DNA of 64,000 nucleotides, taken from positions 1,612,001-1,676,000 of the forward strand of contig NZ_JAMZDZ010000001.1 of NCBI RefSeq assembly GCF_024172085.1. Reading direction: 5' to 3'. Each line of letters begins with the position of its first letter. Within the stretch, counting starts at the first letter, position 1. A model generated the notes under the pieces. It had not been told where the DNA came from, did no database searches, and worked only from the letters and a program-made list of their open reading frames with translations. The translations under genes were made by a program, and so were the position numbers. This DNA is from Hamadaea flava (GTDB taxonomy: Bacteria; Actinomycetota; Actinomycetes; Mycobacteriales; Micromonosporaceae). Positions 11,614 to 63,983 of the stretch are shown in pieces.

Positions 11614-11615
11614 GG

Positions 11616-45710: not shown

Positions 45711-45995
45711 GTGCGTCCTGAAAAGCAACCAACAAACGAACATCGCGTGGAGCACCACAGCAACGGCTACCGCAGCTTCTACGTCAACGACCGGGTCTTC
45801 GCTCGGTTCCGCGCCGCCGTGCACTGGACCAGCCGCCGGCCCGACGCCATCGGCCGGGCGCCGGAGAACATGTCGGCCGCGATCGAGCAGTACATGGAGC
45901 AGCTGGCCACCCGCCTGGAGCAGGAGTTCAACAACGGCGAGCAGTTCCCCTCCATCCCACCGCAGCGGCGGCGCCGACTGCGGGAGGCGCGGTGA
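45711..45995 (+). CDS. Ribbon-helix-helix-like DNA-binding protein
   Basis: A 94-residue protein. The segment YRSFYVNDRVFARFRAAVHW followed by ENMSAAIEQYMEQLATRLEQ has the strand-helix-helix order of RHH repressors and ParB-like centromere proteins. The tail is basic (QRRRRLREAR). GTG 45711 is chosen since GGGGGAG lies 9 nt upstream; an earlier GTG at 45666 would add 15 residues. Its stop overlaps the start of the MFS gene (GTGA), so it probably regulates that exporter. The RHH fold is inferred from pattern only. Confidence 0.65.
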   Translation: MRPEKQPTNEHRVEHHSNGYRSFYVNDRVFARFRAAVHWTSRRPDAIGRAPENMSAAIEQYMEQLATRLEQEFNNGEQFPSIPPQRRRRLREAR

Positions 45996-47605
45996 CCGCC
46001 GCACCGCAGAACCACCCGCGCCGGTGGGTCGTCCTCGGCGTGCTGATCGTCAGCCTCCTGGCGGTGGTGCTCGACAACACCGTGCTCAACGTCGCCCTGA
46101 CCACGCTCGCCGATCCGGCCGACGGCCTGGGGGCGAGCCAGAGCGAGCTCGAATGGTCCATCAACTCCTACACCCTCGTGTTCGCCGGATTCCTGCTGTC
46201 TCTGGGGACCCTCGGCGACCGGTTCGGCCGCAAGCGGGGAGTCCTGGCCGGGCTGGTGCTGTTCTGCCTCGGCTCGCTGCTGTCGGCGTACGCCCACAGC
46301 CCCGCCCAGCTCATCGGGGCCCGGGTGGTGATGGGCCTGGGCGCGGCGGCGATCATGCCGCTGAGCCTGGCCATCGTCACCGGGCTCTTCTCCGAATCGG
46401 ACCGGCCGCGAGCGATCGCGGTCTGGTCCGGCTCGGTCGGCATCGGCGTGGCGCTGGGCCCCATCGTCGGCGGCCTGCTGCTGGAGCGCTTCTGGTGGGG
46501 CTCGGTCTTCCTGATCAACGTCCCGGTGACGGTCGCCGCGTTCGTGGTGATCGCGCTCGTCGTGCCGGAGATGCGGACCCACTCCTCGGCCCGGGTCGAC
46601 GCCGCCGGCGCGCTATTGTCGATCGTCGCGCTGACGTCGCTCACGTACGGCATCATCGACGGCGGCGACCACGGCTTCGACGACGCCCGGCCGTGGCCTT
46701 GGCTGGCCGCCGGGGTGGTGCTGCTGGCGGTGTTCGTCTGGTGGGAGGGCCGGGCCGCCGAACCCGCGCTGGATCTGCGGCTGTTCCGCGACGCCCGGTT
46801 CAGCGCCGCCAACACCGCCATCAGCCTCGTATTCTTCGCGGCCATCGGAGCGTTCTTCTTCATCCAGTTCTACCTCCAACTGGTCCGGGGCTTCTCGCCC
46901 CTGAAGGCAGGGCTGCTGGTGACGCCGTTCGCGGTGGCCCAGCTCGTCTTCGCCCCGGCCAGCGCCGCCCTGGTCCGCCGGTTCGGCTTCCGCGCGGTGT
47001 GCGGGGCCGGGCTGGTGCTGACCGCCGGTGCGCTGGGCGGCACGGTCCAGCTCACGGCCCACACATCCCTGGTGATCGTCGGCGCGGCCTTCTTCGCCGC
47101 CGGGATCGGGATGTCGCTGGTGATGGCGCCGTCGATGGCGTCGGTGATGGCCAGCGTGCCCCGCGACCGGGCCAGCGTCGGCTCGGCGACGGCCAACACG
47201 GTTCGCCAGGTGGCCAGCGCGCTCGGCATCGCCGTCGCCGGATCGATCCTGACCCCGCTGTACCGGGCCGGGATCGATCCGCACCTGGCGGGGCTGCCCA
47301 CGGCGGCCCGGGAGGCGGCGGCCGAGGCGCTGGCCGCCGCCCACGCGGTCGCGCCTTCGCTCGGTCCGGCCGGACCGGCGCTGGTGGACGCCGCCGACAC
47401 CGCCTTCGTCGAGGCGCTGCGGACCACGTTGCTGATCCTCGCCGTCACCGTGCTGGCCGCCACCCCCATCGTCGCCCGCTGGCTACCCGGCCGCCGGCAC
47501 GAGGACCGGCGGGCGTCCGGCGTACGCCTGAGCGGCGACGGCGGCGGCGACCTCGGCGACACCACCGGGCTCCCGGAGGCGCAGCACGAGGACGCCCACT
47601 CCTGA
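45992..47605 (+). CDS. MFS exporter (DHA2, 14 helices)
   Basis: A 537-residue multidrug-type transporter: VLDNTVLNVALTTLAD in helix 1, GDRFGRKRGVLAG in loop 2-3, and MGLGAAAIMPLSLAIVTGLF in helix 5 (antiporter motif C region). The last 40 residues are hydrophilic and run 123 bp into the 3' end of the convergent kinase gene. It is translationally coupled to the RHH protein and lies beside the HMGR-kinase cluster, so it could export its product; this is inference from position only. Confidence 0.92.
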   Translation: MTAAPQNHPRRWVVLGVLIVSLLAVVLDNTVLNVALTTLADPADGLGASQSELEWSINSYTLVFAGFLLSLGTLGDRFGRKRGVLAGLVLFCLGSLLSAYAHSPAQLIGARVVMGLGAAAIMPLSLAIVTGLFSESDRPRAIAVWSGSVGIGVALGPIVGGLLLERFWWGSVFLINVPVTVAAFVVIALVVPEMRTHSSARVDAAGALLSIVALTSLTYGIIDGGDHGFDDARPWPWLAAGVVLLAVFVWWEGRAAEPALDLRLFRDARFSAANTAISLVFFAAIGAFFFIQFYLQLVRGFSPLKAGLLVTPFAVAQLVFAPASAALVRRFGFRAVCGAGLVLTAGALGGTVQLTAHTSLVIVGAAFFAAGIGMSLVMAPSMASVMASVPRDRASVGSATANTVRQVASALGIAVAGSILTPLYRAGIDPHLAGLPTAAREAAAEALAAAHAVAPSLGPAGPALVDAADTAFVEALRTTLLILAVTVLAATPIVARWLPGRRHEDRRASGVRLSGDGGGDLGDTTGLPEAQHEDAHS

Positions 47606-48325
47606 GAGCCAGTCCAGCACCTGTTCGTAGCCCCGCGCGACGGCGGCCAACTGCGCCGCCGACTCGTGGATCTCCGCGCCGCGGCCCCGGCGGTCCAGCC
47701 GGGCGATCGCCTGCTCCGGTGGCACGTCGAGCAGCACGACGATGTCCGGCAAGGCGATCGCGAAGGTGTCGGAGAGGTGGCGGACCAGGTCCTCCGGCGG
47801 CAACGCGTACATGGCGAGCAGGTCCGCGCCGAGCCGCCACAGATCCGTGTCACAGCCGATGCGGCGCGCCCAGGCGCGTACCCCTAGGAGGACCAGGGGA
47901 TCCACGGGCAGGACGGCGGGCGGCGGTGCGGGCGGGACCGCGGATCTGGCCAGGGCCTTCGCGTAGAGCGGGAGGTAGACCAGCGAGTCGACCAGCGGAT
48001 GCCGGTCGGCGACGATCACCCGGGGCCGCCACGCGTCGACCGCCAGCCGCTGCGCCGGGCCGTAGGTGGCCAGTTGCAGGTAGAAGGCCGCGATCTTGAG
48101 GTGCGGGCTGTGCAGCCGATCCGCCGCCGCCGACAGCTCCTCGAGCTGCCGGGACAGCTCGTGCAGCGGGCCGTTGGGGGCCTCGTGCGGCCGGATCGTG
48201 TGCAGCACGGTGACGTCCTGTTCGCTGCCCGCCTGACGGCGCAGCTCGTGGGCGACGGAGGTCTTGCCGCAGCCGTCGATCCCCACGAGGGCGACGACCA
48301 GCGGATCCGTAGCGGCGCTCGTCAT
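47483..48325 (-). CDS. Thymidylate-kinase-like P-loop kinase
   Basis: A 280-residue cytoplasmic P-loop kinase of the thymidylate kinase superfamily: VVALVGIDGCGKTSVAHEL (P-loop), IVADRHPLVDSLVYLPL (the DR(Y/H) motif) and IALPDIVVLLDVPPEQAIARLDRRG (lid-side strand). It is longer than bacterial Tmk (about 210), with an insertion around LPVDPLVLLGVRAWARR, so its substrate may not be dTMP. ATG 48325 overlaps the stop of the HMGR-APH gene (ATGA). It is the last gene of a five-gene operon. Its 3' end overlaps the convergent MFS gene by 123 bp. Confidence 0.8.
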   Translation of the reverse strand: MTSAATDPLVVALVGIDGCGKTSVAHELRRQAGSEQDVTVLHTIRPHEAPNGPLHELSRQLEELSAAADRLHSPHLKIAAFYLQLATYGPAQRLAVDAWRPRVIVADRHPLVDSLVYLPLYAKALARSAVPPAPPPAVLPVDPLVLLGVRAWARRIGCDTDLWRLGADLLAMYALPPEDLVRHLSDTFAIALPDIVVLLDVPPEQAIARLDRRGRGAEIHESAAQLAAVARGYEQVLDWLSGVGVLVLRLREPGGVAEVAAAVAAQAYAGRPPVLVPAAG

Positions 48326-50685
48326 CGGTCCCCCGTCAGCTGCAACAGGTGCCGCGCGGTGCGGAAGACTCGCGGCACGAACGGCTGCTCGCGATGGGTG
48401 TGGAACATCAAGTACAGCTGGAGCCGGGTCATCAGCAGGTCCTGCACCGCGAAGCGGAAGCCGCGCCGCCACTGGCCGGGGTCGAGGTCGACGCCCGCCA
48501 CGCCGGCGACCTTGCGCCGATGCCGCTCCAGGTAGTGCTCCAGTTGCTCGGACGTCGCCTGCGGAGTCAGCGTGAAGCACAGCAGTTCGGCCAGGTCACG
48601 CTGCGGCAGACCGACCGTCGCCAGCTCCCAGTCGAAGGCCACCAGACCGAGCCCGTTCCGGCGCAGCGCGATGTTGCGCGGGCTGAAGTCGTTGTGGATC
48701 AACGTCTTCGGCAGCGCGTCCTGTTCGCGCAGCCAGCCGCCGGCCTCGTCGATGAGCATCGTGATCTGCCGGTGGGCACCGGCGTCCACCACATCGGGGT
48801 GCTCGGCGGCGTTGAAGTCACACAGCGCCTGCCACAGTTCGGCCGCCTTCTCGACATGTTCGCTGCCCGGGACGAAGCCCAGCCAGCCGCGGTCGAGCAG
48901 GGCGTCGGTGTCGTTGAGCCAGCGGCCGTGAAGTGGGGCGATGCCGTCGACGGCGGCCTCGACCATCGGCGTGGCCCACAACTCGGGCCGGTCGGCGGTG
49001 TCGAGGAGCACGACCTCGGTCCGCGTGAGCCGCTCCAGCAGCAGCGCGTACGCCTCCCGCCCGGCGTCTTCGAACACGCCGTAGCATCGCGGGCTGATCG
49101 AGGCCAGCTCGGGCAGGTCGGCCCGGTAGAGCGCGAGTTCCCGCAGATGGGCGTCCTTGATGCCGGTGAGGCCGGCGAACCGCTGCCAGGCCTGGGCGAC
49201 CCGGTCGCCACACAGCGAGGCGACCCGGGCCATCGCGACCACGACCTCGTCGTCCAGTGGCTTGAGCTTGGCCATCAGCGGCAGCTCCCGCTCAGACCGG
49301 CCATCGTGGACGATGAGGTCCAGCGGCAGTACGCCGAGCAGCTTGCGCTGCTCCCCCGTCGCGACCGCGTCGGTGATGATGCCCGAGCCCTGCACAGCTG
49401 GGCCGAGCGTGACCGAGGTGACCTGCGCGCCGGGCAACGCCGGGGCGAGCAGGGTCTGGAGCAGTCCGGTCGTCACGTCGGCGGGACGCAGCCACCGGAC
49501 CTCGCGCGGCCGCCCGAGCCGCTGGTGGGCGTCGGCGAACTGCCCGCTGGTGATGGCGGCGGCCGTCGACAGGTCCAGGGCCAGCGCGAACCCGGCGACG
49601 ATCTCGGCCAGCCGGCCGGCGTTGCCCTCGCCCGCGCAGCCCAGGGCGGTCAGCATGTCCCGCTGCTGGGTCAGCCGCGTACCGCCGCCGACCGTGCCGA
49701 CGATCAGGTTGGGCAGCAGCATGGTGGCCAGGATCCCGTCGTCGTGCGGCTCGATGCCGAGGATCGCCGTCGACGACTCGTGTACGCAGGCGATGTCCTG
49801 CCCGGTCGCGACGAAGAGGGCGGCGATGACGTTGGCGGCGTTGACGGTGTAGCCGTGCATGCCGGCTTGCAGCGCGGCGAGCAGGCCGACGCGATAGGCC
49901 CGGTCGAGCGCCTCCGGCGTCGTCTTGAGGACAGCCGCGACGGTGGCCCGGTCGAGGAAGCACTCAGCGGTCACCCGCGCACCGCGTCCGTCGATCATGG
50001 ACAGTTGGGTGACCTTCTTGTCGCCGCTGAGGTTGCCCTCGATCTGGAACAGCTCCGGCTTCAGCAGCGGGTCGTCGGCCAGGCTGTCGTTGATGAACGT
50101 GCAGATGCTCCAGGTCGCCGCAGTCGTCATGTTCTGCCCGGCGGCGTCCCGCGTCTCGAACGCGAAGCGGACGTGCACATAGCGCCCGATCTGGAAGGGC
50201 TGGACGTCGACAAGGTTGGCGTGCCTCGACACCAGCCCCACCCGTTGCCGCAGCTGGGACGTGTTCTCGGCGAGCCACCGGGTGAAGGCGTACGCCGCCG
50301 CCGTGTCGGCGAACCCGTAGACGGGCGCACGGGTCATCCGCTGCGCGAGCACATGCGTGCGTACGCCGCCGCCGAGGGTGATCGCGCGGGCGCCCCGGGC
50401 GACCGAGGCGACCAAGGCCCCCTCCGTGGTGGCCAACGGGGCGACGATCGGCCCCTGGACGTTGCCGCCGTCGAACAGCAGCGGACCGGCCAGCCCGACC
50501 GGGATCTCCACGGTCGCGGTGAAGTTCTCGATGTTGCCCGCCAGCGTCCGGGCGTCGATCCGGCCCGGCCCGAGCGAGGCCAGCGCGCTGCCGCTCTGTG
50601 CCCGCAACCACTCCAGCCGATCGGCGCGGGCGGCTTCGGTGTGCAGGCCCCGGCCGGGGATCACGTCGAAGGTCGCCTCGGTCAT
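48322..50685 (-). CDS. HMG-CoA reductase fused to APH/choline-kinase-like domain
   Basis: A 787-residue fusion. Residues about 45-395 are an HMG-CoA reductase of the eukaryote-like class I pattern. All four catalytic residues have counterparts: Glu88 (PLATTEGALVAS), Lys223 (GDKKVTQLSM), Asp297 (ATGQDIAC) and His387 (FADAHQRLGR). The NADPH motif DAAGQNM and GTVGGGTRL are also present. Residues about 425-787 are an aminoglycoside phosphotransferase/choline-kinase-like fold: Lys473 (LMAKLKP), Asp666 and Asn671 (HNDFSPRN), Asp685 (AFDWELA). A reducing and a phosphorylating step seem to be joined in one chain. ATG 50685 overlaps the GH3 stop. No mevalonate pathway genes are nearby. Confidence 0.88.
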   Translation of the reverse strand: MTEATFDVIPGRGLHTEAARADRLEWLRAQSGSALASLGPGRIDARTLAGNIENFTATVEIPVGLAGPLLFDGGNVQGPIVAPLATTEGALVASVARGARAITLGGGVRTHVLAQRMTRAPVYGFADTAAAYAFTRWLAENTSQLRQRVGLVSRHANLVDVQPFQIGRYVHVRFAFETRDAAGQNMTTAATWSICTFINDSLADDPLLKPELFQIEGNLSGDKKVTQLSMIDGRGARVTAECFLDRATVAAVLKTTPEALDRAYRVGLLAALQAGMHGYTVNAANVIAALFVATGQDIACVHESSTAILGIEPHDDGILATMLLPNLIVGTVGGGTRLTQQRDMLTALGCAGEGNAGRLAEIVAGFALALDLSTAAAITSGQFADAHQRLGRPREVRWLRPADVTTGLLQTLLAPALPGAQVTSVTLGPAVQGSGIITDAVATGEQRKLLGVLPLDLIVHDGRSERELPLMAKLKPLDDEVVVAMARVASLCGDRVAQAWQRFAGLTGIKDAHLRELALYRADLPELASISPRCYGVFEDAGREAYALLLERLTRTEVVLLDTADRPELWATPMVEAAVDGIAPLHGRWLNDTDALLDRGWLGFVPGSEHVEKAAELWQALCDFNAAEHPDVVDAGAHRQITMLIDEAGGWLREQDALPKTLIHNDFSPRNIALRRNGLGLVAFDWELATVGLPQRDLAELLCFTLTPQATSEQLEHYLERHRRKVAGVAGVDLDPGQWRRGFRFAVQDLLMTRLQLYLMFHTHREQPFVPRVFRTARHLLQLTGDR

Positions 50686-52343
50686 CGCCGCTGTCCCGCC
50701 ATCGCGACCGGCTGCCCGCCGGTGATCCGCTGCCAGACCTGCGGATCGGTGGTGAACACGCGGTCCTTGACCCGAGGCGGGCGCTCGCCACGGCGTACTC
50801 GGCGCTCCCATTCGCGCAGGAACGCGTGCGGATGGGTGGCGACCACGCTGACCGGGTCGAGCCGATCGGCGGCCCGGCCCCGGGCGTACCCCGGCGACTG
50901 CGCCCGCAGCCGGGCGTCGAGGGCGACGCCGAGGGTCTCCAGCTCGTCCGCCGTGAAGACCCCGGTCGGCGCGATCGCGACCTCGTAACGCCGTCCGCCG
51001 GGCGCCATCCGGCACGTGGCGTTGCGTACCTGGAGGCCGACGTCGCCGAGCGCGCCGGACAGCGCCCGCAACAGCTGCGGCTCCAGCAGGGTGTCCTTCA
51101 CGTCGGCGGCGGGCAGGCTGCGGCCGGCGTACTCGACTCTGGGCGTACCGGCGACGAAGTCCACGACGCGGACGATGTCGGTGACCGCGCACCGGTAGAG
51201 ACCGCCGACGTGGGTCAGCACGACGTGGTATTCGCGGCCGGGCTGCAGCTCGTCGGCGAGCAGCGTGGCACTGCCGGGCTTGATCTCCTCCTCGGCCGGG
51301 ATGAACTCGTAGAGGCAGCCGGTGACGTACAGCGGCCCGGCGGTCGGATGCCGGTCCAGCTGCACCGCGACCGGGCCCTCACAGGACGCGACAGGTCCAG
51401 GAAGGACACTCACGTCGGCTCCGTAGGCCGCGCGGGCCTGCGGCAGGTAGAACGACGACAGCGCGGTGTTCCAGGTGACGAGCAGATCGATGTTGGGCCA
51501 CAGGTGCTCGGGCCGGATCGTGCCGAAGTACGCGGCCAGCCGCTCGATCTCGCGGGCGCGTTCCGGGTTCGGGGACCGGTGCGGCAGACCGCCGAGGGTG
51601 CCGGCCGCGATCTCCTCGACCATCCGGGGCCACCACTGTTCCAGCTGATAGGGCAAAGCGGCGGCGATGGCGGGGTTGACCGTGACGACGCAGCGGATGT
51701 CGTACTCGGCGGCCAGGCGCACTTTCAGGTAGGTGCGCTCCCAGTGGTCGGCGTCGGTGAACGCGTCGGGCAGCCGGCTCCACGGCGCGGCGTTGCCCGG
51801 TCCGACGGCGAGCTGATCGCCGAACTTGCCGAAGTCGACCTGGCTGGGTCCGATGTGCGGCTGGCCGCCGGAGGTCCGCGCGATCGGCGAGTGCGGATCC
51901 TGCCACAGATTCAGCACACCGCTCTGCGTCGCGATCGCCTCGGGGTGGTGCTCGACCACTCGGGCGAAGCAGGCGTAGTAGAACGGCAGGAAGCAGTCGC
52001 GCATGTACGTCCGGGTCACCGGGATGTGCTTCTCCCGGCCGGTGGTGCCGCTGGACGAGAAGTAGACGACCGGGTCCTCGGCGGTGAGGATCTTCGGCTC
52101 ACCGGCGATTGCGCGCTCGATCCAGGGCATGTACTCCTCGTGCGTCCGGATCGGCACCCGGCGGCGCAGGTCGTCGACCGAATGGACGGCGGCGAGGTCG
52201 TGCTCGGTGCCGAACTCGGTGGCGGAGTTGGCGGTCAGCACTTCCTGCAGGACTTCGTGCTGGGCCAGCATCGGCTCGGCGAGCCGGTTGAGCAGGCGCT
52301 GCTTGGCCGCGCGTACGCGGTCGGTGTAATCGATGTCAGTCAT
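50682..52343 (-). CDS. GH3 family acyl-adenylate amide synthetase
   Basis: A 553-residue enzyme of the GH3 auxin-conjugase-like superfamily of acyl-adenylating enzymes. It activates a carboxylic acid with ATP and couples it to an amine, as in plant auxin and jasmonate conjugation. Motif 1, YFSSSGTTGREKHIPVT, is the ATP-phosphate loop; LYRCAVTDIVRV resembles the second ATP region; VKDTLLEPQLL starts the C-terminal domain. It overlaps the upstream gene by 8 bp and the HMGR-kinase gene by 4 bp. Bacterial GH3 proteins are rare and seldom characterised. The acid and amine substrates are unknown. Confidence 0.85.
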   Translation of the reverse strand: MTDIDYTDRVRAAKQRLLNRLAEPMLAQHEVLQEVLTANSATEFGTEHDLAAVHSVDDLRRRVPIRTHEEYMPWIERAIAGEPKILTAEDPVVYFSSSGTTGREKHIPVTRTYMRDCFLPFYYACFARVVEHHPEAIATQSGVLNLWQDPHSPIARTSGGQPHIGPSQVDFGKFGDQLAVGPGNAAPWSRLPDAFTDADHWERTYLKVRLAAEYDIRCVVTVNPAIAAALPYQLEQWWPRMVEEIAAGTLGGLPHRSPNPERAREIERLAAYFGTIRPEHLWPNIDLLVTWNTALSSFYLPQARAAYGADVSVLPGPVASCEGPVAVQLDRHPTAGPLYVTGCLYEFIPAEEEIKPGSATLLADELQPGREYHVVLTHVGGLYRCAVTDIVRVVDFVAGTPRVEYAGRSLPAADVKDTLLEPQLLRALSGALGDVGLQVRNATCRMAPGGRRYEVAIAPTGVFTADELETLGVALDARLRAQSPGYARGRAADRLDPVSVVATHPHAFLREWERRVRRGERPPRVKDRVFTTDPQVWQRITGGQPVAMAGQRR

Positions 52344-53100
52344 CGGCGGTTTCCCTCAAGTGCGTGGGTACGTCGGAGGTGAGGCGGGCGTACAGGCGGC
52401 GGTTCCCGGTCTGGTGTGGATCGTCGGAGATCCGCAGGTGGGTCGCCGTGGCGAGGTGTTCGTCGACGGTGAGGCGGTCGACGTGGGCGATGGTCAGCTC
52501 GTCGCCGGGGCGCAGTGTCCGGCGAAGGACCGCTTCGCAGAGCACGTGGTGGACGTGCACGAGGTACTCGGCGACGGTGACGCCGCCGACGGCGATGTCC
52601 AGGCGATGCCGATTCCCGGTGGCCGCGGTGGGCTCTCCAGGGGGACCCGGCACGGTGATGGTGAGCGTGCCGGGCAGGCTGGTGCAGGGCGCGGGCGCTC
52701 GCAGGAGTTTCAGGCCCCGGCTGAGCGCGCTCTTGGGATCGTCGGGGGCCGGGCCGAGCCAGGCGATGCCGTCGGTCACGTGGTCGCACGGGAACCGGCG
52801 GGCGACGCTGTCCGGGTTGCCGGCGAAGAAGACCGCGCGGGTGAACGAGCGGTACCACGGGTCACGGGCCGGCTCCGGGACGGCGGCGGCGAAGCCGAGC
52901 GCCCCGGTGACGAACGTACGCAGATCGAACGTCCCGATGACCGCGGAGACTCGGTAGCCGGTCATCGTGGGCGCCATGGGCGCCATGGGCACGGTACGCG
53001 GCGTGGGCGGCGCGGTGGGTTCGGCGTCGTCGGCGAGCCCACGGCTGACCCGTTCGTAGTGGGCGAGCAGGAGGCGGCCGAGCAGCTGTTGTTCGTCCAT
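52336..53100 (-). CDS. Unknown protein in the HMGR/GH3 operon
   Basis: A 254-residue soluble protein that I do not recognise. The first 50 residues are Pro/Ala-rich with short MAPMAP repeats. Then YRVSAVIGTFDLRTFVTGAL, PWYRSFTRAVFFAGNPDSVA, VAEYLVHVHHVLCEAVLRRT and PGDELTIAHVDRLTVDEHL suggest an alpha/beta fold. The His-x-His-His (HVHH) patch could be a metal or catalytic site. It lies 1 bp after the ArgRS-like gene and overlaps GH3 by 8 bp, so it is an integral part of the operon. Confidence 0.7.
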   Translation of the reverse strand: MDEQQLLGRLLLAHYERVSRGLADDAEPTAPPTPRTVPMAPMAPTMTGYRVSAVIGTFDLRTFVTGALGFAAAVPEPARDPWYRSFTRAVFFAGNPDSVARRFPCDHVTDGIAWLGPAPDDPKSALSRGLKLLRAPAPCTSLPGTLTITVPGPPGEPTAATGNRHRLDIAVGGVTVAEYLVHVHHVLCEAVLRRTLRPGDELTIAHVDRLTVDEHLATATHLRISDDPHQTGNRRLYARLTSDVPTHLRETADD

Positions 53101-53101
53101 G

Positions 53102-54229
53102 TCAGCCGAACACCGTGGTCAGCAGGCCGGCCGGCACCCGGCGGCGGCGGTCGAGCAAGCCGGTGGTCAGCCGGTACGGGTCGACGTAGCCGCCGTCGGG
53201 GACGGCCAGCCGCCGCAGGAACTCGGGACCGCCGCCGTCCGGTTCGGCGTCGCCGGTCTCGCCGAGGATGCGTTCGGCGCGCACCATCGAGCGCCGCAAC
53301 AGCTCGGGCTGGAACGACTTGGCACAGCCGCGTTCCAGCATGGCGATGAAGTAGATGCGCATGCCGAGGCGGTAGGTCGGCACGTCCACATGTCGCAGGC
53401 AGGCGTCCGCCAGGTCGGACAGGGTCTTGCCCTCCCAGCCGCCGTGCCGGCTGGAGGCTACGACGCCGTCGATCGGCACCCGGCCCAGGGCCAGCCGGGT
53501 CACGGCGGCTCCGAGCGCGGTCAGCACCTTGTCGAGCAGGATGTAGTCCTGCATGAGTTCCTGGTCGTAGACGAGGACCACGCGCTGATGCCGTGCGCCG
53601 ATCGGGATGAGTTCCCGCAACACCGGGACGAGGTAGTTGGCGACGCCCTCCTCGTCGACGATCTGCCGCACTGGCAGGCCCCAGATCGTGCCGTCTAGGT
53701 AGACCGGCCCGCCGATGCCCCGGTGGTCGATGGTGAGCTGATGCTCACGCAGGACGTCGAGCACGTCGTCGGCGGTCAGCGTCAGCTCGGCCGGGTCGAG
53801 CAGACCCGGATCGGCCACGTTGAGCAGGTCGAGCTGCTCCTTCCAGAGGTCGATGAGCCGGACGCTGGCCGGATGAATCCAGCCCTCTTTCTCCACCCGT
53901 TCGAAATAAGGTTGCAATGAATCGCCGGTGGGGCGTACGCCCGCCGCATTGGATCGGACGTACAACTCGCCCAGTTCCGATTCGGAGCAGGCCGACCAGT
54001 CGACGGCGCCGACCGCTCGGTCGAGGAATTCCCAATAGGCCGCGGTCTGGGCGGTGAGGGTGGACATCCGCGGATTCCACACGTAGGTGACCGGGCGGAT
54101 CTCCCGGGTGCTCTTGTGGATCACGTCGAGCCACAGCAGCCCCTTGACGTGAGTGGGCGTCAGCGGCTTGGTCGGCGTGATCGTGACCGGCGCCAACGCC
54201 AGGTCGGCCGTCACCGGCGCATCGTTCAT
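53102..54229 (-). CDS. Unknown protein with weak ArgRS-like features
   Basis: A 375-residue protein, first in the leftward operon. The order of segments recalls class I arginyl-tRNA synthetase: KPLTPTHVKGLLWLDVIHKS in the place of the HVGH region, YLDGTIWGLPVRQIVDEEG (like the DGTPxY strand), HQRVVLVYDQELMQDYILLD (like VVGAEQxLHFxQ), and SSRHGGWEGKTLSDLADACL (like the KLSTRKG loop). The signature residues are not conserved (THVKG instead of HVGH; no KMSKS) and there is no anticodon domain. So it would not be a normal tRNA synthetase. This reading is my inference and may be wrong. ATG 54229 is preferred over the open frame to 54340, since a purine-rich GGAGAGGCAG precedes it. Confidence 0.55.
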   Translation of the reverse strand: MNDAPVTADLALAPVTITPTKPLTPTHVKGLLWLDVIHKSTREIRPVTYVWNPRMSTLTAQTAAYWEFLDRAVGAVDWSACSESELGELYVRSNAAGVRPTGDSLQPYFERVEKEGWIHPASVRLIDLWKEQLDLLNVADPGLLDPAELTLTADDVLDVLREHQLTIDHRGIGGPVYLDGTIWGLPVRQIVDEEGVANYLVPVLRELIPIGARHQRVVLVYDQELMQDYILLDKVLTALGAAVTRLALGRVPIDGVVASSRHGGWEGKTLSDLADACLRHVDVPTYRLGMRIYFIAMLERGCAKSFQPELLRRSMVRAERILGETGDAEPDGGGPEFLRRLAVPDGGYVDPYRLTTGLLDRRRRVPAGLLTTVFG

Positions 54230-54481
54230 CTGCCTGCCTCTCCTCGGATCGACCGCCCCTCGGGCGGCCCGCGCCGACGGGCCCGACCGGGCGCGCCGAC
54301 CGCCGGAAATTAGCAAGGCGATGCGTACGCCAGCAATCACAGAATTGCATTCTAGGTTGTCTTGCGTCTCTTATGAGAGATGCCTCGAATACCTGTCTGA
54401 CAAAGAAATTCCGGGTAGCCGACAATTGTTGTTCCGGCTATTGTTCACGGCGACCGGATCGCGTGCGACAAAGGAGCCGTA
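54230..54481. promoter_or_regulatory. Divergent promoter region of the cryptic cluster
   Basis: A 252-bp region between the two operons, noticeably richer in A and T than its surroundings. It holds a perfect 5-bp-arm palindrome, TCTCT-TATG-AGAGA (54367-54380), extended by imperfect flanks, and two ATTGTT direct repeats (54425-54430 and 54440-54445). The epimerase has AAGGAG 5-10 bp before its ATG. Either element could be the target of the AfsR-like regulator at the cluster's right end. The exact start sites cannot be read. Confidence 0.55.
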
Positions 54482-55633
54482 ATGGCGGGCATCGCCCACG
54501 ACGTCACTCTCTTCATTGGAGCCCGACCCAACCTGCCCAAGGCCGCGACGCTCGTCCGCGCGTTCGCCGCGCCACCGCTGCGCGACGCCGGAGCCGGGCT
54601 GCGTGTCGTCCACACCGGACAACACGCCGCCGGGCGGATGGGCCTGTCCTACGCCGACACGCTCGGCATACGCGTCGAGGAGGTGCTGCGAGCGCCGGAC
54701 GCGGAGCGCGACGGCGAGCGGCTCTCCTCACTGGTCGCCGTGATCGACCGCTACCTGGCCCGATCCGGCGACCCGGACCTCGCGGTGGTGGTCGGCGACG
54801 TGAACTCGACGCTGGCCGCAGCCGTGGTCGCCGCCCGCAACGGCATCCCGGTCGCGCACGTGGAGGCCGGGCTGCGCTCGCATGTGCGCGACGAGCCCGA
54901 GGAACTCAACCGCCGGATGATCACCGCCGTGGCCGACTTCCACCTCGCGCCGTCCCGGCGTGCGGTCGGCAACCTGCTCCGCGAGAACATCTCCGGCGAA
55001 CGGATCTGGCTGGTGGGCAACGCCCACACCGAGAGCTTCCTGCTCGGAGCCGACGAGCGCCGGGCCGCGGCCGACCCGGCCGACCTCGGCTTGGAGCCCG
55101 GCTCCTATGTGCTGCTATCGGTGCACAAGGCGTCGACCATGCAGCATCAGACCTGGCTGGAGGAGCTGGTGCACAAGCTGGCCGGCCAGGAACGCGTGGT
55201 GTGGGTGCTGCATCCGGGCTGCCACAAGCTGCTGACCCTGGCCGCGCCGCACCTGCTCGCCGTCGACGGCGTCCGCTACCTGGACCCGTTGCCCTACCAC
55301 GATTTCGGCCGGCTGCTCACCTCGGCCGCCTGTGTGGTCACCGACTCGGCCGGGATGCAGGAGGAGACCACGGTCTCCGGCGTCGCCTGCGTCACCGTCG
55401 GCGTCGACACCGCCCGTCCCGAGACCGTCAGCCACGGCACCAACGCGTTCGCCGGCTTCGACGTCGGGCTCGCCCTCGCGGCCACCGACCAGGCGGTACG
55501 CGGGCCGCGGCGCCCGGCGCAGGTGCCCGAGCACTGGGACACGTCGGTCAGCACCCGGATCAGCGAGGTGCTCGCGGGCATCCTCGCCGACTCCGCGGCC
55601 GCCCGGCAGAACGCCTCGCTCACCCACCGATAA
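54482..55633 (+). CDS. UDP-N-acetylglucosamine 2-epimerase-like protein
   Basis: A 383-residue GT-B-fold epimerase of the WecB/MnaA family, which converts UDP-GlcNAc to UDP-ManNAc. Motifs: FIGARPNLPKAATLV (start), VVHTGQHAAGRM, VVVGDVNSTLAAAVVAARNG, AHVEAGLRSHVRDEPEELNR (the Asp-Glu-Asn/Arg catalytic loop), and VVTDSAGMQEETTVSGVACVT. Compared with WecB, the usual QRPE-like strand is altered (TVGVDTARPETVSHGTN), which may change the reaction or substrate. It is the first gene of the rightward operon. CDP-alcohol phosphotransferase follows 30 bp later. Confidence 0.9.
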   Translation: MAGIAHDVTLFIGARPNLPKAATLVRAFAAPPLRDAGAGLRVVHTGQHAAGRMGLSYADTLGIRVEEVLRAPDAERDGERLSSLVAVIDRYLARSGDPDLAVVVGDVNSTLAAAVVAARNGIPVAHVEAGLRSHVRDEPEELNRRMITAVADFHLAPSRRAVGNLLRENISGERIWLVGNAHTESFLLGADERRAAADPADLGLEPGSYVLLSVHKASTMQHQTWLEELVHKLAGQERVVWVLHPGCHKLLTLAAPHLLAVDGVRYLDPLPYHDFGRLLTSAACVVTDSAGMQEETTVSGVACVTVGVDTARPETVSHGTNAFAGFDVGLALAATDQAVRGPRRPAQVPEHWDTSVSTRISEVLAGILADSAAARQNASLTHR

Positions 55634-55663
55634 ACGCTCGCACACCGACAAGGGGGCTCGACG

Positions 55664-56293
55664 ATGCGACGGCTGGACCTTCCGAATCTCGTGACCGCCA
55701 CCCGCTACCCCAGCGCGCTGGTCTTCCTGCTCGCCTGCGCCGCCGGCCGTCCGTCGTGGTCGGCGGCGACCCTGGCGCTGCTCCTCCTGACCTACCTGAC
55801 CGACCTGCTCGACGGCTTCCTGGCGCGGCGTACGCCCGGACGGGATCCGCGGGCGGGCCAGGTGATGGACAGCGCCGCCGACAGCTACACGTTCGTCATC
55901 GTCTTCACCGGCTTGTTCGTCGCCGGCGTGGTCCACCCGATCACGCTGTGCGCGGTGATCGGCGGCCGGGCCGTGCTCGACCTGACCCGCCTGGTCGGGC
56001 TGGCCCGGGGCGAAAGCTACCTGCGCCCGACGTTCTACACGAAGGCCAAGGGCTTCGTGTACTGCAGCCTGTCCATCGTCCTGTACGCCAAGACCGTGCC
56101 CGTGTTCGCCTGGCTGGGCCGCGATCCGCTGCCCGTGGCCGCCAACACGGCGCTCGTGCTGGCCACGGTGGCGGCGGTGGGCTCCTTCCTCGCCGTGCAC
56201 CGGCAGCACTTTCTGACCATGTTCGCTCCGGCGACCCCCTCGATCACCGAAAGGTTGGAGCATGTCGAAACCCAATCGCCAAGCCGCGCTTGA
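55664..56293 (+). CDS. CDP-alcohol phosphatidyltransferase
   Basis: A 209-residue membrane enzyme with about six helices. The family motif is DLLDGFLAR, then nine residues (eight is usual), then GQVMDSAAD, giving the D-x2-DG-x2-AR ... G-x3-D-x3-D pattern that binds CDP and two metal ions. It transfers a phospho-alcohol between CDP and an acceptor alcohol, often to make phospholipid. The substrate is unknown. The end overlaps the methyltransferase start by 32 bp. Confidence 0.88.
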   Translation: MRRLDLPNLVTATRYPSALVFLLACAAGRPSWSAATLALLLLTYLTDLLDGFLARRTPGRDPRAGQVMDSAADSYTFVIVFTGLFVAGVVHPITLCAVIGGRAVLDLTRLVGLARGESYLRPTFYTKAKGFVYCSLSIVLYAKTVPVFAWLGRDPLPVAANTALVLATVAAVGSFLAVHRQHFLTMFAPATPSITERLEHVETQSPSRA

Positions 56294-56912
56294 CCAATAC
56301 GGGAAGATCGCGAGCTATTACGACTACCAGCTCGTCTTCCGTGGGATGCGGGCCAAGGGCATCGCCGCCCTGGGCCTGCGCCCGGGACAGACGGTGCTGG
56401 AGGCCGGTTGCGGCACCGGCGTCAACTTCGCCCGGCTGCGTGCCGGGGTGGGAGCGACCGGGCAGGTCTACGGCATCGACCAGAGCCCGCTGATGCTGCG
56501 GCAGGCGCGCGCGAAGATCGCCCGGCGGGGCTGGACGAATGTGGAGGTCTTCGAGTCGCCGTTGGAGGAGGCGGAGCTGCCGTTGCTCGCCGACGCGCTG
56601 CTGTTCTCCTTCACGCACGACCTGTCGCAGATCCCGGCGGCGGTCGACAGCGCGATGGCGAAGGTACGCCCCGGCGGCCGGGTCGTGGCCATCTGCACGC
56701 ACTGGAACGAGAAGACCGCGCCCAAGGCCGCGACGACCGTCATCAAGCGGCTGTCCGACCGCTATATGACCACATACGACGGTTACGACGAGCCCTGGCA
56801 CCTCATCGTCCGGCATCTGAGCGGAGTACATCGCGCCCGACACTGGTTCGGCACGATGTACATCGTCAGCGGTGAGCGTACCGGCGACCGAGAGGAGACC
56901 GCCGTCAGATGA
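56262..56912 (+). CDS. Class I SAM-dependent methyltransferase
   Basis: A 216-residue methyltransferase. Motif I VLEAGCGTGVNFARLRAG binds SAM, GIDQSPLMLRQARAK is motif post-I, and LADALLFSFTHDLSQIP is motif II. It has no extra domain and belongs to the UbiE/small-molecule group. The ATG has GGAG 5-8 bp before it. It overlaps both neighbours (32 bp and 4 bp). It probably methylates a cluster intermediate or a lipid. Confidence 0.9.
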   Translation: MSKPNRQAALDQYGKIASYYDYQLVFRGMRAKGIAALGLRPGQTVLEAGCGTGVNFARLRAGVGATGQVYGIDQSPLMLRQARAKIARRGWTNVEVFESPLEEAELPLLADALLFSFTHDLSQIPAAVDSAMAKVRPGGRVVAICTHWNEKTAPKAATTVIKRLSDRYMTTYDGYDEPWHLIVRHLSGVHRARHWFGTMYIVSGERTGDREETAVR

Positions 56913-57952
56913 GCGTCACCCAGCCCGTCGCCGAGCTGTTGCGGCCGCTATATGCGTACACCGTGGACGATCTGGTCCAGCGGGTGCGCGCGGCGGCGAC
57001 CGACCACCAGACCGAGGACGGCGTCAGGTTCGTCACGTTCGGCGCCGCCGACGAGCCGATCGGCGACGCGCTGGTGTGCCTCGGCCCGTTCGGCGGCCGG
57101 GTGGACTGGGCCAATCCGCTGCCGATGGTGCGCGGGCACCTCATGCACGAACTCCTCCGGCAGCTCGCCGGACCGAAGGCCCCGGCCGTCGTCGTGCTGC
57201 CCGGGCCGACCGGGCTCGCCGGCGTTCGCGACCCGGCGCTGCGTCGCGCGTACCACGCCGGGGACTTCGGCCCGATCGCCGACCGTTATCTGGCGGTGCT
57301 CACCCGGGCCGGCGTCGGGCGGGTGTGCCTGCACGGCTTCTCGCAGGGTGCGAGCCTGGCCGGGTTCGTCGCCGCCCGCGCGGCCGCGCACGGTGTCGAC
57401 GTCGACAGCGTCGCGCTCGGCGATCCGCCCGGACTGCGCAGCACCAACTGGCCGACGATCGCCTGGCGCTACGTACGCGAAGGCGCCAGCATCTCCGACG
57501 ACGTGTCCCACAATCCGCTGGAGAGCTATCGGAACGCGTACCGGACGCTGGCCGCCAGGGCGCGGACGAACGCGTTGGTGAGCGAGATCCGGCTCAATCT
57601 GGCGCTGGCCCGCGGGCACGGCCGCGGACGGCTCAGTGCGGAGCTGCGCGGCGTGCTCGATCGGGGCATCCCGGTCGGCATCACCGTCGGAGAGCATTCG
57701 CGGATGTCGCCCGCGGCGGCCGGTCAGGCGTTTCTCCGTACGCTGCCGGACGCCCAGCGCCGCCACTGCGACCTGCTGGTCATCGCCGACCGGCATCACG
57801 GCTGGCTGCACGACACCCCGGTGTTGTTGCAGAGCCTGCTGATCCACCTGTGGCACAAGTCCCGGCTCATCGACGCGCCGGCCGACGCGGGCCCGTGGCC
57901 GCAGGTGCTCGGGTTGGCGACCGGCCATTCTCAGCAGCACTCCGACAGCTAG
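56909..57952 (+). CDS. Alpha/beta-hydrolase-like protein
   Basis: A 347-residue protein with a nucleophile elbow GFSQGASLAGFVAA (about residues 145-158, Ser148 region), and a possible acid/His pair in VGITVGEHSR and IADRHHGWLHDTP. No signal peptide. AVVVLPGPTGLAG (about residues 91-103) is a possible oxyanion strand. It could hydrolyse or transfer an acyl group in the pathway. ATG 56909 overlaps the methyltransferase stop (ATGA). The substrate is unknown. Confidence 0.75.
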   Translation: MSVTQPVAELLRPLYAYTVDDLVQRVRAAATDHQTEDGVRFVTFGAADEPIGDALVCLGPFGGRVDWANPLPMVRGHLMHELLRQLAGPKAPAVVVLPGPTGLAGVRDPALRRAYHAGDFGPIADRYLAVLTRAGVGRVCLHGFSQGASLAGFVAARAAAHGVDVDSVALGDPPGLRSTNWPTIAWRYVREGASISDDVSHNPLESYRNAYRTLAARARTNALVSEIRLNLALARGHGRGRLSAELRGVLDRGIPVGITVGEHSRMSPAAAGQAFLRTLPDAQRRHCDLLVIADRHHGWLHDTPVLLQSLLIHLWHKSRLIDAPADAGPWPQVLGLATGHSQQHSDS

Positions 57953-57962
57953 GAGAATTTAC

Positions 57963-58112
57963 ATGCGTGTGACCAAATCCGTGCTCGCCGTCGTCATCCT
58001 GGTGCTCGCGCTCCTAGGTGGACTCTCGTCGCCGGCCCAGGCCGGCCCCGGGACCGGCGACGACTTCATCTGGTGCGGGCTCGATCCGTTCGACGGCGGC
58101 AGCAGCTGCTGA
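57963..58112 (+). CDS. 49-residue secreted peptide with two cysteines
   Basis: A short gene 10 bp after the hydrolase stop, with AGGAGA 7 nt before its ATG. The product has a classical Sec signal peptide: MRVTKSVLAVVILVLALLGG, then an AQA cleavage site at residue 27. The predicted mature part is only 22 residues, Gly/Asp-rich and acidic, includes GDDFIWCGLDPF, and ends in Cys49. Cys38 and Cys49 could form a disulfide. It could be a secreted peptide signal, a modified peptide precursor or a membrane-anchored accessory. The tight spacing suggests it is made together with the biosynthetic enzymes. Confidence 0.75.
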   Translation: MRVTKSVLAVVILVLALLGGLSSPAQAGPGTGDDFIWCGLDPFDGGSSC

Positions 58113-58244
58113 CGCAACCTACCGGGTAGCCATCGGCGTCTATGGGAAAACGGATTCGCAGCCGACCCCGGCGGCCACAGCCATCTCCTAGTCAACCAGC
58201 GGGAGAGGTATGGTTATGACTCCGCCTTGGGGGGAGGCTCGGGA

Positions 58245-61097
58245 GTGCTCGATGTGCTGGTGCTCGGCCCGGTCGAGGCGCGCTACCAGGGCACTGTCGT
58301 CCCGTTCGCCCGCCGCCATCAACGGCTCATTCTGGGCATCCTCGCCTTGGAGTGCAATCGCGAGGTCTCCTGCGACCGGCTGATCGGTCTGCTGTGGGAG
58401 CAGCCCGCGCCTCGCCAGGCGCGGGCTGCCGTCCAGAGCCGGATGTCCGAGATCCGGTCCACCCTCGCGCAGTACCACGAGGACGGACCTGTCCCGATCG
58501 TCTCCCGAGGCAACAGTTATGTGCTGCAGCTCGATCCCGAGCGGGTCGACGCGCACCGGTTCCGAACGCTCACCGCGGCGGGTCGGCTGCCCGGCGACGA
58601 CGAACAAGCTCGGCACAACCTGCGTACGGCGCTTGCGCTGTGGCGGGGACCGGCGCTGGGCACCCGGCCGGGCGACGCGCCGCTGAGCGCGCTCTGTCAG
58701 CAGCTGGAGGCCGCCCGGCTGACCGCCTGGGAAGACCTGTTCGACCTGGAGCTGCTGCTGGGCCGCCACCACGAGGTCGTCGACGAGATCGTGGAGCTGG
58801 CCGCCCGGCATCGCACCCGCGACCGGCTGATGGAACACATGATGCTGGCCCTGCACCGGGTCGGCCGCAGCAGCGAGGCGTTGCAAGGCTATGACCGCTG
58901 GCGGCGCTGGCTGGACGCCGAGCTGGGCGCGCTGCCACGCCCGGACCTGCAACGGCTGCACGTGTCCATCCTCAACAATGATCCCGGTCTGCTGGCCGTC
59001 CCGGCCGGCGCCGCGGAAGAGGCCGCCGACGTGCCGTTCACCGCGGCCGTGCCGCGTACCCTGCCGCCCGCGCTCATCGACTTCAGCGGCCGCTCGGAAC
59101 AGCTGGCCACGCTCACCGCCGCGCTGTCCGCCCAGGACCACCGCCCCACTCGGGTCGTCGCGGTCTCCGGGCCGCCCGGGGTGGGCAAGACCGCGTTGGC
59201 CTTGCAGGCCGCGCACGCTCTGCGCGACGAGTTCCCCGACGGTCAGTTGTACGCCAATCTGCGCGGCACCGATCCCGAGGAGGCGGTGCCCCCGTTCGAC
59301 GCGCTCGGCCGGTTCCTGCGCGGGTTCAATGTGGAGGGCCAGGCGCTGCCGAGCACGCTGGACGAACGCGCCGAACTGTTCCGGGACATCCTGGCGACGC
59401 GCAAGGTGCTGGTGGTCCTCGACGACGCCGCCGGGGACGACCAACTGCTGCCACTGCTGCCGGGCAGCATCGAATGCGCCGTGCTCGTCACCGGGCGAGC
59501 CCGGCTCGGCACCACGCTGGGCGCGCGTACGGTCGCCTTGGATCTGCTGGCGCCGGATCAGGCGCTGGATCTGTTGTCCTGCATCGTCGGAGCCGAACGG
59601 GTGGCGGCCGAACCCCGGGCGTCGGCGAGGCTGGCCCGGCTCTGCGGCTACCTGCCGTTGGCGATCCGGGTCGTCGGCGCGCGGCTGGCCGCCAAACCGC
59701 ACTGGACCATCGAGAAGATGGCCGCCCTGTGCGCCGACGAGCAGAGTCGGCTCGACCAGCTCGCCTACCAGCATCTCGACGTACGCAGCAGCATCGCGCT
59801 GAGCTACGAGGGCCTGCCCGAGGAAGCCCGGCGGCTCATGCGGCTGCTCGGCGACGTCGACCTGCCCGATGCCACCGTGTGGATCTCCACCGCGCTGCTC
59901 GGCCGGGACGTCGACACGGCCTGGCTCGCGCTGGAGAACCTGTTCGACGCCAACCTCATCGACGTCTCGGGCCGCGACACCGCCGGATATCCCCGGTATC
60001 GCATGCACGACCTGGTGCGGCTGTTCGCCAAGGAACGAGCCGCCGCCGAACATCCGCCCGCCGACCTCGCCGCGGCGCGCAGCCGGGCGTACCGGTTCTG
60101 CCTGACCTTGGCCGAACGGGAGTATCTGCGGCTGTTCGGCGACGGCGGTCACCGCGTCCGCGGCGACACCCCGCGATGGACTCCGGTCGGCGTACGCGCC
60201 GGGTCCGGGGCTCGCTGGTCGCCCGGCCAGGATCTCGTCGGCGAACTGCTGGCCAAGCCGATGCGCTGGTTCGACCACGAGCGGCCGACGGTGATCGCGA
60301 TGATCCAGAAGGCGGCCCGGGACGAGCTGGCCGGGGTGTGCTGGGAACTCACCAGCACCGTCGCGCCGATGTTCCAGATGCGCCGCGACTTCTGGGATCT
60401 GGAGTCGATCCTGTGGGTCGCCCAGCGCGCGACCGAGGCGGCCGGTGACACGCGGGGACGGACCGCCGTGCTGTGCCGGATCGCGCTCAACCACGTCGAC
60501 CGCAGTCAGCCCGATGCCGCCCTGCGGCTGCTGACCGAGGCCGCCGACACGTTCGTCACGCTCGCCGACACCCACGCGTACGCCACCACGCTGTCCCTGC
60601 TGGCCACCGTAGAACGATTCCTCGATCGCAACGACGACGCGCTCATCCACTACACGGAGTCGATGCAGCTGCTGCGCACCAGCGGAGACGAGGTCGCCGT
60701 CGCGTGGGTGCTGCGGGGGATGGGCCAGGCACACCTGGACGCCAAGGATCTTCCCCAGGCCCGGGAGCACCTGGCGGAGGCCCTTCGGCGATTCCGGGCG
60801 GCGGGCTCGCAGCAGGGCGAGGCGACGGCGCTGTTCTGGCTGGCCCGGCTCGTGTTCGCCGAAGGACGGCCCGAGGAGGCGCTGACCGGATTCGAGCAGG
60901 CGTTGCAGATCGCCCGCCACCTCACCGACCGGCCGGGCGAGGCGCAGTGCCTGCGCGGAATCGGCCTGGTCCATCGGGCGCTCGGCGACACCGTCCAGGC
61001 CCGCGCCGCCCTCACCCGAGCGCTCGACCTGGTCCGGCAGCCGCGAGCCACGCTGTTGGAGAGCCACATCCGGCGAACCCTCGACGACGTCGAGTAG
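58245..61097 (+). CDS. AfsR/SARP family transcriptional regulator (SARP-NB-ARC-TPR)
   Basis: A 950-residue pathway regulator. Residues about 1-90 are the OmpR-like winged helix of SARPs (ARRHQRLILGILALECNREV, AVQSRMSEIRSTL); 95-245 is the BTAD helical domain (LWRGPALGTRPGDAPLSALC). Then comes an NB-ARC ATPase: P-loop GPPGVGKTALALQAAHAL, Walker B KVLVVLDDAAG, GLPL-like CGYLPLAIRVVGARLA and MHDLVRLFA. The C-terminus is TPR repeats. The frame opens at TTG 58227, but GTG 58245 with GGGGGGAGG 7 nt upstream is preferred. SARPs activate biosynthetic clusters; this one is likely cluster-situated and binds direct repeats in promoters such as 54230-54481. Confidence 0.92.
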   Translation: MLDVLVLGPVEARYQGTVVPFARRHQRLILGILALECNREVSCDRLIGLLWEQPAPRQARAAVQSRMSEIRSTLAQYHEDGPVPIVSRGNSYVLQLDPERVDAHRFRTLTAAGRLPGDDEQARHNLRTALALWRGPALGTRPGDAPLSALCQQLEAARLTAWEDLFDLELLLGRHHEVVDEIVELAARHRTRDRLMEHMMLALHRVGRSSEALQGYDRWRRWLDAELGALPRPDLQRLHVSILNNDPGLLAVPAGAAEEAADVPFTAAVPRTLPPALIDFSGRSEQLATLTAALSAQDHRPTRVVAVSGPPGVGKTALALQAAHALRDEFPDGQLYANLRGTDPEEAVPPFDALGRFLRGFNVEGQALPSTLDERAELFRDILATRKVLVVLDDAAGDDQLLPLLPGSIECAVLVTGRARLGTTLGARTVALDLLAPDQALDLLSCIVGAERVAAEPRASARLARLCGYLPLAIRVVGARLAAKPHWTIEKMAALCADEQSRLDQLAYQHLDVRSSIALSYEGLPEEARRLMRLLGDVDLPDATVWISTALLGRDVDTAWLALENLFDANLIDVSGRDTAGYPRYRMHDLVRLFAKERAAAEHPPADLAAARSRAYRFCLTLAEREYLRLFGDGGHRVRGDTPRWTPVGVRAGSGARWSPGQDLVGELLAKPMRWFDHERPTVIAMIQKAARDELAGVCWELTSTVAPMFQMRRDFWDLESILWVAQRATEAAGDTRGRTAVLCRIALNHVDRSQPDAALRLLTEAADTFVTLADTHAYATTLSLLATVERFLDRNDDALIHYTESMQLLRTSGDEVAVAWVLRGMGQAHLDAKDLPQAREHLAEALRRFRAAGSQQGEATALFWLARLVFAEGRPEEALTGFEQALQIARHLTDRPGEAQCLRGIGLVHRALGDTVQARAALTRALDLVRQPRATLLESHIRRTLDDVE

Positions 61098-63898: not shown

Positions 63899-63983
63899 GT
63901 TCACTCCCGGGGTCGAGGGCTTGACCTTAGTAGGTGCCTGCGGCGATGGTCACCATTACGACCAGCGGGAGAATTTCTTCGGT

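Follow-up and report, generated by a model that had tools for sequence, protein, structure and literature searches.

Stand-alone aaRS-like ligases such as MshC and SbzA employ a shortened class I core for amide formation, and are derived from CysRS or IleRS. A nine-ORF region of 8.8 kb, rubM2-rubP4, was described within the rubiginone gene cluster of Streptomyces sp. CB02414, together with a counterpart in S. hundungensis (PMC8487521, 2021). According to the available parts of that paper, the region is unlike known angucycline and aromatic polyketide clusters, its authors suggest a possible insertion, the S. hundungensis counterpart does not lie in a recognisable BGC, and no function is reported for the region. 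The canucins of S. canus are 14-mers with a hydroxylated Asp14, and the account of the canucin cluster, in the sections available, mentions CanE, CanB1, CanB2 and CanC and nothing from the gene set described below (PMC9266682).

The locus studied here lies in a 64,000-nucleotide stretch of the Hamadaea flava genome (the window). An initial annotation, made from the sequence alone, had placed eleven genes here in two divergent, translationally coupled operons forming a single biosynthetic locus. All eleven genes are present; ten pass the GC3 filter, and the remaining one, an ORF of 49 aa that is below the length minimum of the filter, was read from the sequence. The minus-strand operon runs from 54229 to 47483. 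It comprises the core gene of a 375-aa ArgRS-like protein (53102-54229), the core gene of a 254-aa DUF6182 protein (52336-53100; PF19680, E 1.8e-52), a predicted GH3-type acyl-adenylating amide synthetase of 553 aa (50682-52343; PF03321, E 9e-43, and GH3_M, 1.9e-16), an HMG-CoA-reductase-like (HMGR) domain fused to an APH-type kinase domain (48322-50685; PF00368, HMG-CoA_red, 1.5e-105, and PF01636, APH, 1.8e-08, in the same protein), and a thymidylate-kinase-like (TMK-like) P-loop kinase of 280 aa (47483-48325; PF02223, Thymidylate_kin, 3e-09). The ArgRS-like gene starts with the ATG at 54229, which is preceded, by eye, by GAGGAG; the start of the longest ORF, at 54340, was rejected as too far upstream. 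Successive junctions are of +1, -8, -4 and -4 bases, which makes the annotated translational coupling plausible for this operon as a whole. An MFS transporter gene, assigned by eye and by homology among loci, lies on the plus strand (45992-47605) and is convergent with the TMK-like gene, their 3' ends overlapping by 123 bases. The convergent pair recurs in the relative locus L023 (29% identity). The MFS protein may be an exporter for the product of the operon.

The label "ArgRS-like" given in the initial annotation is borne out by structure prediction. For an AF2 model with a pLDDT of 90.2, the ten best Foldseek matches in the PDB are all arginyl-tRNA synthetases (2zue, E 1.8e-10), followed by CysRS, GluRS, MetRS and MshC, the latter (3c8z) at rank 29. 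Judged from the model, the protein is a shortened class I aaRS catalytic core of the ArgRS type, with 375 aa versus the 550-660 aa of ArgRS. It matches no Pfam family, even at E 10. The profile of the family aligns with P. horikoshii ArgRS at E 0.48, in pieces of 9.9 and -0.3 bits, and this match ranks below chance matches to RecR; the sequence link is thus not significant alone. The two pieces nevertheless fall on the signature motifs in the correct order, VNPTKPLHMGH (VTPTKPLTPTH in the window) and SGRKGTWVGFT (SSRHGGWxGxT in the window). In the register of this weak alignment, three features are kept in 87/87 proteins of the family, namely the last His of HIGH, the Lys that precedes it and one Gly in the KMSKS region, while the full HIGH motif is absent, its first His being replaced in all 87 (by Thr in 78). 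In the same weak register, the residues aligned with yeast E148 and N153, which we take to be arginine ligands, are Ala in 86/87 and Thr or Ser in 87/87. The amino-acid pocket therefore looks altered; adenylation by the protein is plausible and arginine is an unlikely substrate. In comparison with MshC and SbzA, the window protein is nearest to ArgRS and differs in its HIGH motif.

A housekeeping ArgRS role was rejected for the window gene, given that PF00750 (tRNA-synt_1d) matches two other genes elsewhere in the same genome and leaves the window protein unmatched. One of these two genes adjoins a lysA-like gene; the other (L174, 1120-2790, minus strand) encodes 556 aa. In antibiotic clusters, aaRS paralogues serve as resistance genes. 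This use would favour reading the ArgRS-like protein as a decoy or self-protection paralogue with a resistance or regulatory role, a reading we consider very unlikely since the protein is much shorter than ArgRS, its pocket appears altered, and DUF6182 is constantly alongside it, mostly with GH3 and a kinase as well.

The protein that the initial annotation had left as unknown does match a family, although one named as a domain of unknown function, DUF6182, which is not mentioned in the literature searched. Its model has a pLDDT of 67.4 and yields no usable Foldseek match (best E 0.39). The best PDB sequence match of the DUF6182 profile, mL65 (E 0.0074), looks like chance and was set aside.

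The adenylation motif SSGxTG of the GH3 protein occurs in 77 of 80 family members, the other three being outside the alignment at this position. Its best NCBIfam match is to OlsH (NF052613), a GH3-family lyso-ornithine lipid synthetase, at 65.3 bits versus a cut-off of 620; the window protein has the GH3 fold in common with OlsH, yet at this distance from the cut-off it is not an OlsH. The TMK-like protein likewise scores 38.2 bits against TIGR00041, the dTMP kinase equivalog, below the cut-off of 83.25. In its DRH motif, R and H are found in 22/22 copies and D in 21/22.

In the fusion protein, the HMGR-like domain spans aa 20-392 and the APH-type kinase domain about aa 430-787. The HMGR catalytic residues Glu88, Lys223, Asp297 and His387 are kept in 22/22 copies, as are His664 and Asp666 (HxD), Asn671 and Asp685 of the kinase. 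Of the positions that presumably contact the HMG carboxylate as in human HMGR (Arg, Lys, Ser), Arg119 and Lys254 are kept in 22/22, whereas the Ser is replaced by Glu or Asp in 22/22; this position is Ser in both alignments of known HMGRs used for comparison. The replacement hints at an altered substrate, possibly one bearing an amino group. The likeness to the class I HMG-CoA reductase 6hr7 amounts to 257 bits and includes all four catalytic residues, but the residue equivalent to Ser684 is Glu/Asp, the Pro of DKKP is lost, and the domain is fused to a kinase. Against TIGR00533 (HMG_CoA_R_NADP equivalog) the domain scores 278.1 bits, below the cut-off of 441.8.

Given HMGR catalytic residues and two kinases within one operon, a noncanonical upper mevalonate pathway has to be considered, in which HMGR would yield mevalonate, and the APH-type and TMK-like kinases its mono- and diphosphate for isoprenoids. 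HMG-CoA is probably available to such a pathway: PRK05692, which we take to be HMG-CoA lyase, is matched above cut-off in the genome, and HMG-CoA could hence come from leucine. However, the same genome yields no match to HMG-CoA synthase (PF08540), it has a single HMGR gene, and its three GHMP kinases read as GalK and IspE (by eye) and ThrB (by its place near rho), which leaves none for mevalonate diphosphate decarboxylase. Consequently, no mevalonate pathway was found, and a mevalonate or isoprenoid role of the operon was rejected on genome content. The exchange of the HMG-binding Ser also speaks against such a pathway, in which the GH3, ArgRS-like and DUF6182 proteins would be left unexplained. 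Overall, we hold this reading to be quite improbable.

Relatives of the locus were collected by two routes. Among 300 genomes sampled from the host's family, at least 14 match DUF6182 at E 0.001 (13 above cut-off), as do at least 6 of 394 genomes of its class, the host's own genome included in both; these, as all counts from our whole-genome searches, are lower bounds, as few candidates are scored per genome (two in the search for the HMGR-APH fusion). The family matches provided 13 loci, with the one match below cut-off omitted. In the 13 fetched stretches, the ArgRS-like gene is present in 12, GH3 in 9, and HMGR-APH with TMK in 5. An alignment of the ArgRS-like protein searched against the genomes of 84,980 prokaryote species then gave 113 relatives, and the 80 of them that were listed are all from Actinobacteria; a scan of the same genome contigs with the single protein gave no match. 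A tblastn search of plasmids added one copy of the window's gene set, in an unannotated record. The 80 loci, the 13 earlier ones, the plasmid copy and the window make 95 loci, which were reduced to 87 with distinct ArgRS-like proteins by dropping seven copies with an identical ArgRS-like segment and L023, which is without an ArgRS-like match. Matches below 60 bits were dropped except for F3, DUF6182 and TMK, which removes a weak HMGR-APH match in L076, and loci cut by contig ends were scored as lacking the missing gene.

Within 9 kb of the ArgRS-like gene, DUF6182 is found in 84 of the 87 loci, GH3 in 80, F3 in 57, LCM (carboxyl methyltransferase) in 57, and HMGR with TMK in 22; given that the loci were picked via the ArgRS-like gene, these counts describe its company and not its frequency. 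The same gene order was to be sought in other actinomycetes according to the initial annotation, which took unlinked neighbours as evidence against its reading, and for the minus-strand operon the neighbours are linked: the order ArgRS-like, DUF6182, GH3, HMGR-APH, TMK (type B), on one strand, is identical in 21/87 distinct loci, the window included. A sister cassette with the order F3, GH3, LCM, ArgRS-like, DUF6182 (type A) accounts for 49/87, and the remaining 17 are variants or miss a gene, some of them at contig ends. HMGR lies within 9 kb of LCM or F3 in none of the 87. A common core of ArgRS-like and DUF6182 genes, mostly with GH3 and a P-loop kinase, thus bears one of two mutually exclusive arms, either the HMGR-APH kinase (type B, as in the window) or the carboxyl methyltransferase, to which further genes may be added (type A). 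The one F3 member scanned has no Pfam match at 0.01, yet its motifs GPDYAGKS and DSYYYK, set beside GIDGCGKT and DRH of the TMK-like protein, mark F3 as a P-loop kinase like the latter, so that by motif a kinase belongs to both types.

In a quick tree of the ArgRS-like proteins, supported by SH-aLRT values only and midpoint-rooted just for drawing, the 22 loci with HMGR fall on one branch together with L030 (SH-aLRT 99), with the window near the base of the type B branch together with L024. L030 and L023, about 21 kb apart and on contigs of equal length, look like a type B set that has been broken in two within one Actinoplanes genome, and L035 is an exception, a type B locus without GH3. At least one other of the 394 class genomes carries a whole HMGR-APH fusion with 43% identity (L173, 7948-10287, minus strand) while the rest of the cassette is missing from 18 kb of sequence, which speaks against an obligate link between fusion and cassette. 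L027 and L028 sit on a long branch of the tree and show yet another arrangement, in which ArgRS-like and DUF6182 genes are combined with a PPDK-like protein, an AfsA-type protein and a ketosynthase. A protein of about 210 aa with a LysR substrate-binding domain and no HTH match (one member scanned) is encoded in L069 (11809-12432, plus strand) and relatives, in 31 of 83 clustered loci.

By order and size, as far as the available parts of the rubiginone paper allow, rubM2-rubP4 is a type A cassette, RubP1, RubP2, RubP3, RubP4 and RubM3 corresponding to DUF6182, ArgRS-like, GH3, F3 and LCM (L053), respectively. In comparison with the window, it is without HMGR-APH and adds a further methyltransferase, an oxidoreductase and an abhydrolase. 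In the literature examined, partly available as excerpts, the cassette family is undescribed, the rubiginone paper being the one found to mention a relative, and no product of such a cassette is named in the papers searched.

The plus-strand operon fares differently from the minus-strand one. Across a divergent intergenic region of 252 bases (54230-54481), it begins with a non-hydrolysing UDP-GlcNAc 2-epimerase-like gene (54482-55633; PF02350, Epimerase_2, 6.2e-66), followed by a CDP-alcohol phosphotransferase-like gene (55664-56293; PF01066, CDP-OH_P_transf, 1.9e-15), a SAM methyltransferase (56262-56912; PF13649, Methyltransf_25, 4e-13), a hydrolase-like protein (56909-57952) and the 49-aa orphan ORF (57963-58112), which by eye has a signal-peptide-like N-terminus and two Cys. 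The annotation as a hydrolase rests on the reader's eye, no Pfam family being over cut-off. A large SARP regulator with BTAD (3.8e-32), NB-ARC and TPR domains lies after the operon (58227-61097, plus strand). From the epimerase to the 49-aa ORF the junctions are of +30, -32, -4 and +10 bases; the genes are tightly packed, yet the annotated coupling, as judged from these distances, does not extend throughout.

The initial annotation had joined both operons into a single pathway that would yield a polar, phospholipid-like conjugate by way of CDP-alcohol exchange and methylation. The two operons are indeed divergent and adjacent, have the 252-base promoter region in common and are followed, after the plus operon, by the SARP gene. 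The plus-strand genes were searched by phmmer and tblastn against 93 relative loci, a set that still contains identical copies. The CDP-alcohol phosphotransferase, the hydrolase and the 49-aa peptide have no match in it, the epimerase has one weak match (L055), and the methyltransferase has superfamily-level matches of at most 44 bits by tblastn; SARP-type regulators occur in 13 of the 93. Beyond these loci, the best match of the CDP-alcohol protein outside its own genome reaches 40.3 bits in 296 class genomes, the peptide has, besides itself, two marginal matches in 200 family genomes, and the hydrolase is found in at least 3 of 250 family genomes, a count that takes in the window's own copy and a marginal match. 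The sole good relative of the hydrolase (50%; L116, 8228-11209) adjoins a caspase-like gene (by eye) and is without the operon. As these genes were not found linked to the cassette in the relatives searched, the plus-strand operon is treated as a local neighbour and looks not to be part of the cassette. As the phosphotransferase, hydrolase, peptide and epimerase are not conserved with the cassette, the phospholipid-like conjugate loses support and is left without comparative backing; we consider the one-pathway reading unlikely. Of the single locus first proposed, the dedicated unit that stands is the minus-strand operon, with its HMGR, kinases, GH3 and ArgRS-like genes. The two operons may be regulated jointly, through the SARP and the divergent promoter; short direct repeats near 54409-54445, at spacings of 15, 22, 23 and 47 bases, are at most suggestive of a SARP operator.

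As the initial annotation had it, no PKS, NRPS or terpene synthase core was found: when the SARP and nine other proteins of the window were scanned, none showed a domain of these types at 1e-5. In relatives, the neighbours of type B cassettes include NRPS genes in L024 and L041, a PKS in L031, and OCD, MMPL and histidine-kinase genes in L046, the family scan having covered a minority of the neighbours. In S. canus (L040), S. muensis and S. griseorubiginosus (L040, L045 and L073 in all) the cassette lies directly downstream of a lasso-peptide set. This set has a precursor of 49-53 aa, with Asp closing its last 14 residues, and proteins that Pfam, applied to the copy in S. canus, assigns to Asn_synthase, transglutaminase-type B2 and TauD. 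We infer that the 53-aa ORF of S. canus is CanA. In S. canus the type B cassette would then adjoin the canucin cluster, as far as the available sections describe the latter (PMC9266682), while no lasso genes were seen in the window, Asn_synthase and transglutaminase being absent from the 20 window proteins scanned. Just upstream of another type B cassette, L026 encodes a class II aaRS-like protein (tRNA-synt_2, 761 aa; 10520-12805, minus strand).

These neighbourhoods, and the occurrence of a type A cassette within the cluster for rubiginone, raise the possibility of a portable tailoring cassette that acts on the peptides or scaffolds of neighbouring clusters, for instance on a lasso-peptide carboxylate. 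The lasso genes, however, lie in a region common to type B loci without them, and no scaffold gene is found among the window proteins scanned. Moreover, the canucin modification described in the sections available is a beta-hydroxylation, with nothing attributed to the cassette (PMC9266682). We regard such a tailoring role as possible but doubtful.

There is good support for the view that the minus-strand operon encodes a pathway dedicated to a small molecule. Our preferred reading, to which we assign a probability of about 40%, is that it is a self-contained type B biosynthetic cassette for a small phosphorylated amide, a pseudo-dipeptide or a moiety for a scaffold. Its chemistry, as read from the enzyme families, would comprise reduction, phosphorylation and two adenylate-driven ligations. 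The HMGR domain would reduce an acyl-CoA to an alcohol; this substrate would resemble HMG-CoA but differ at the site that is recognised, and might carry an amino group. The fused APH-type kinase would phosphorylate this alcohol, and the TMK-like kinase would add or place a second phosphate. The ArgRS-like enzyme would adenylate a substrate that is not arginine, either an acid or another amino acid, and pass it on without tRNA, possibly via DUF6182, and GH3 would form the second adenylate-driven amide bond. These steps would lead to a small phosphorylated compound, an amide or a pseudo-dipeptide, or else to a group added to a neighbouring scaffold, perhaps under control of the SARP and perhaps exported by the MFS protein. 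Against this reading, the neighbours vary among relatives, so that no scaffold common to them is evident.

More tentatively, the two cassette types may represent a new class of actinobacterial pathway without a PKS, NRPS or terpene core, in which an ArgRS-derived, tRNA-independent adenylating ligase with a DUF6182 partner and GH3 as second ligase would build a small amide and be combined with exchangeable arms, one for reduction and phosphorylation by HMGR and kinase, the other for carboxyl methylation, and whose products would be free-standing or attached to lasso peptides, nonribosomal peptides or polyketides. Among biosynthetic clusters with an aaRS-like ligase, the cassette could prove to be a class of its own. 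For genome mining, the pairing of a minimal aaRS-like core and DUF6182 provides a convenient search handle. The cassette would also give DUF6182 a testable role, and it contains an HMG-CoA reductase that apparently stands apart from isoprenoid metabolism.

Two other genes of the window may be recorded. An ORF of 1108 aa on the plus strand (25596-28922) has good codon bias and no Pfam match at 1e-5. On the minus strand, 62555-63904 encodes a 449-aa protein that reads, by eye, as an ECF sigma factor with a C-terminal CAP/SCP-like domain.
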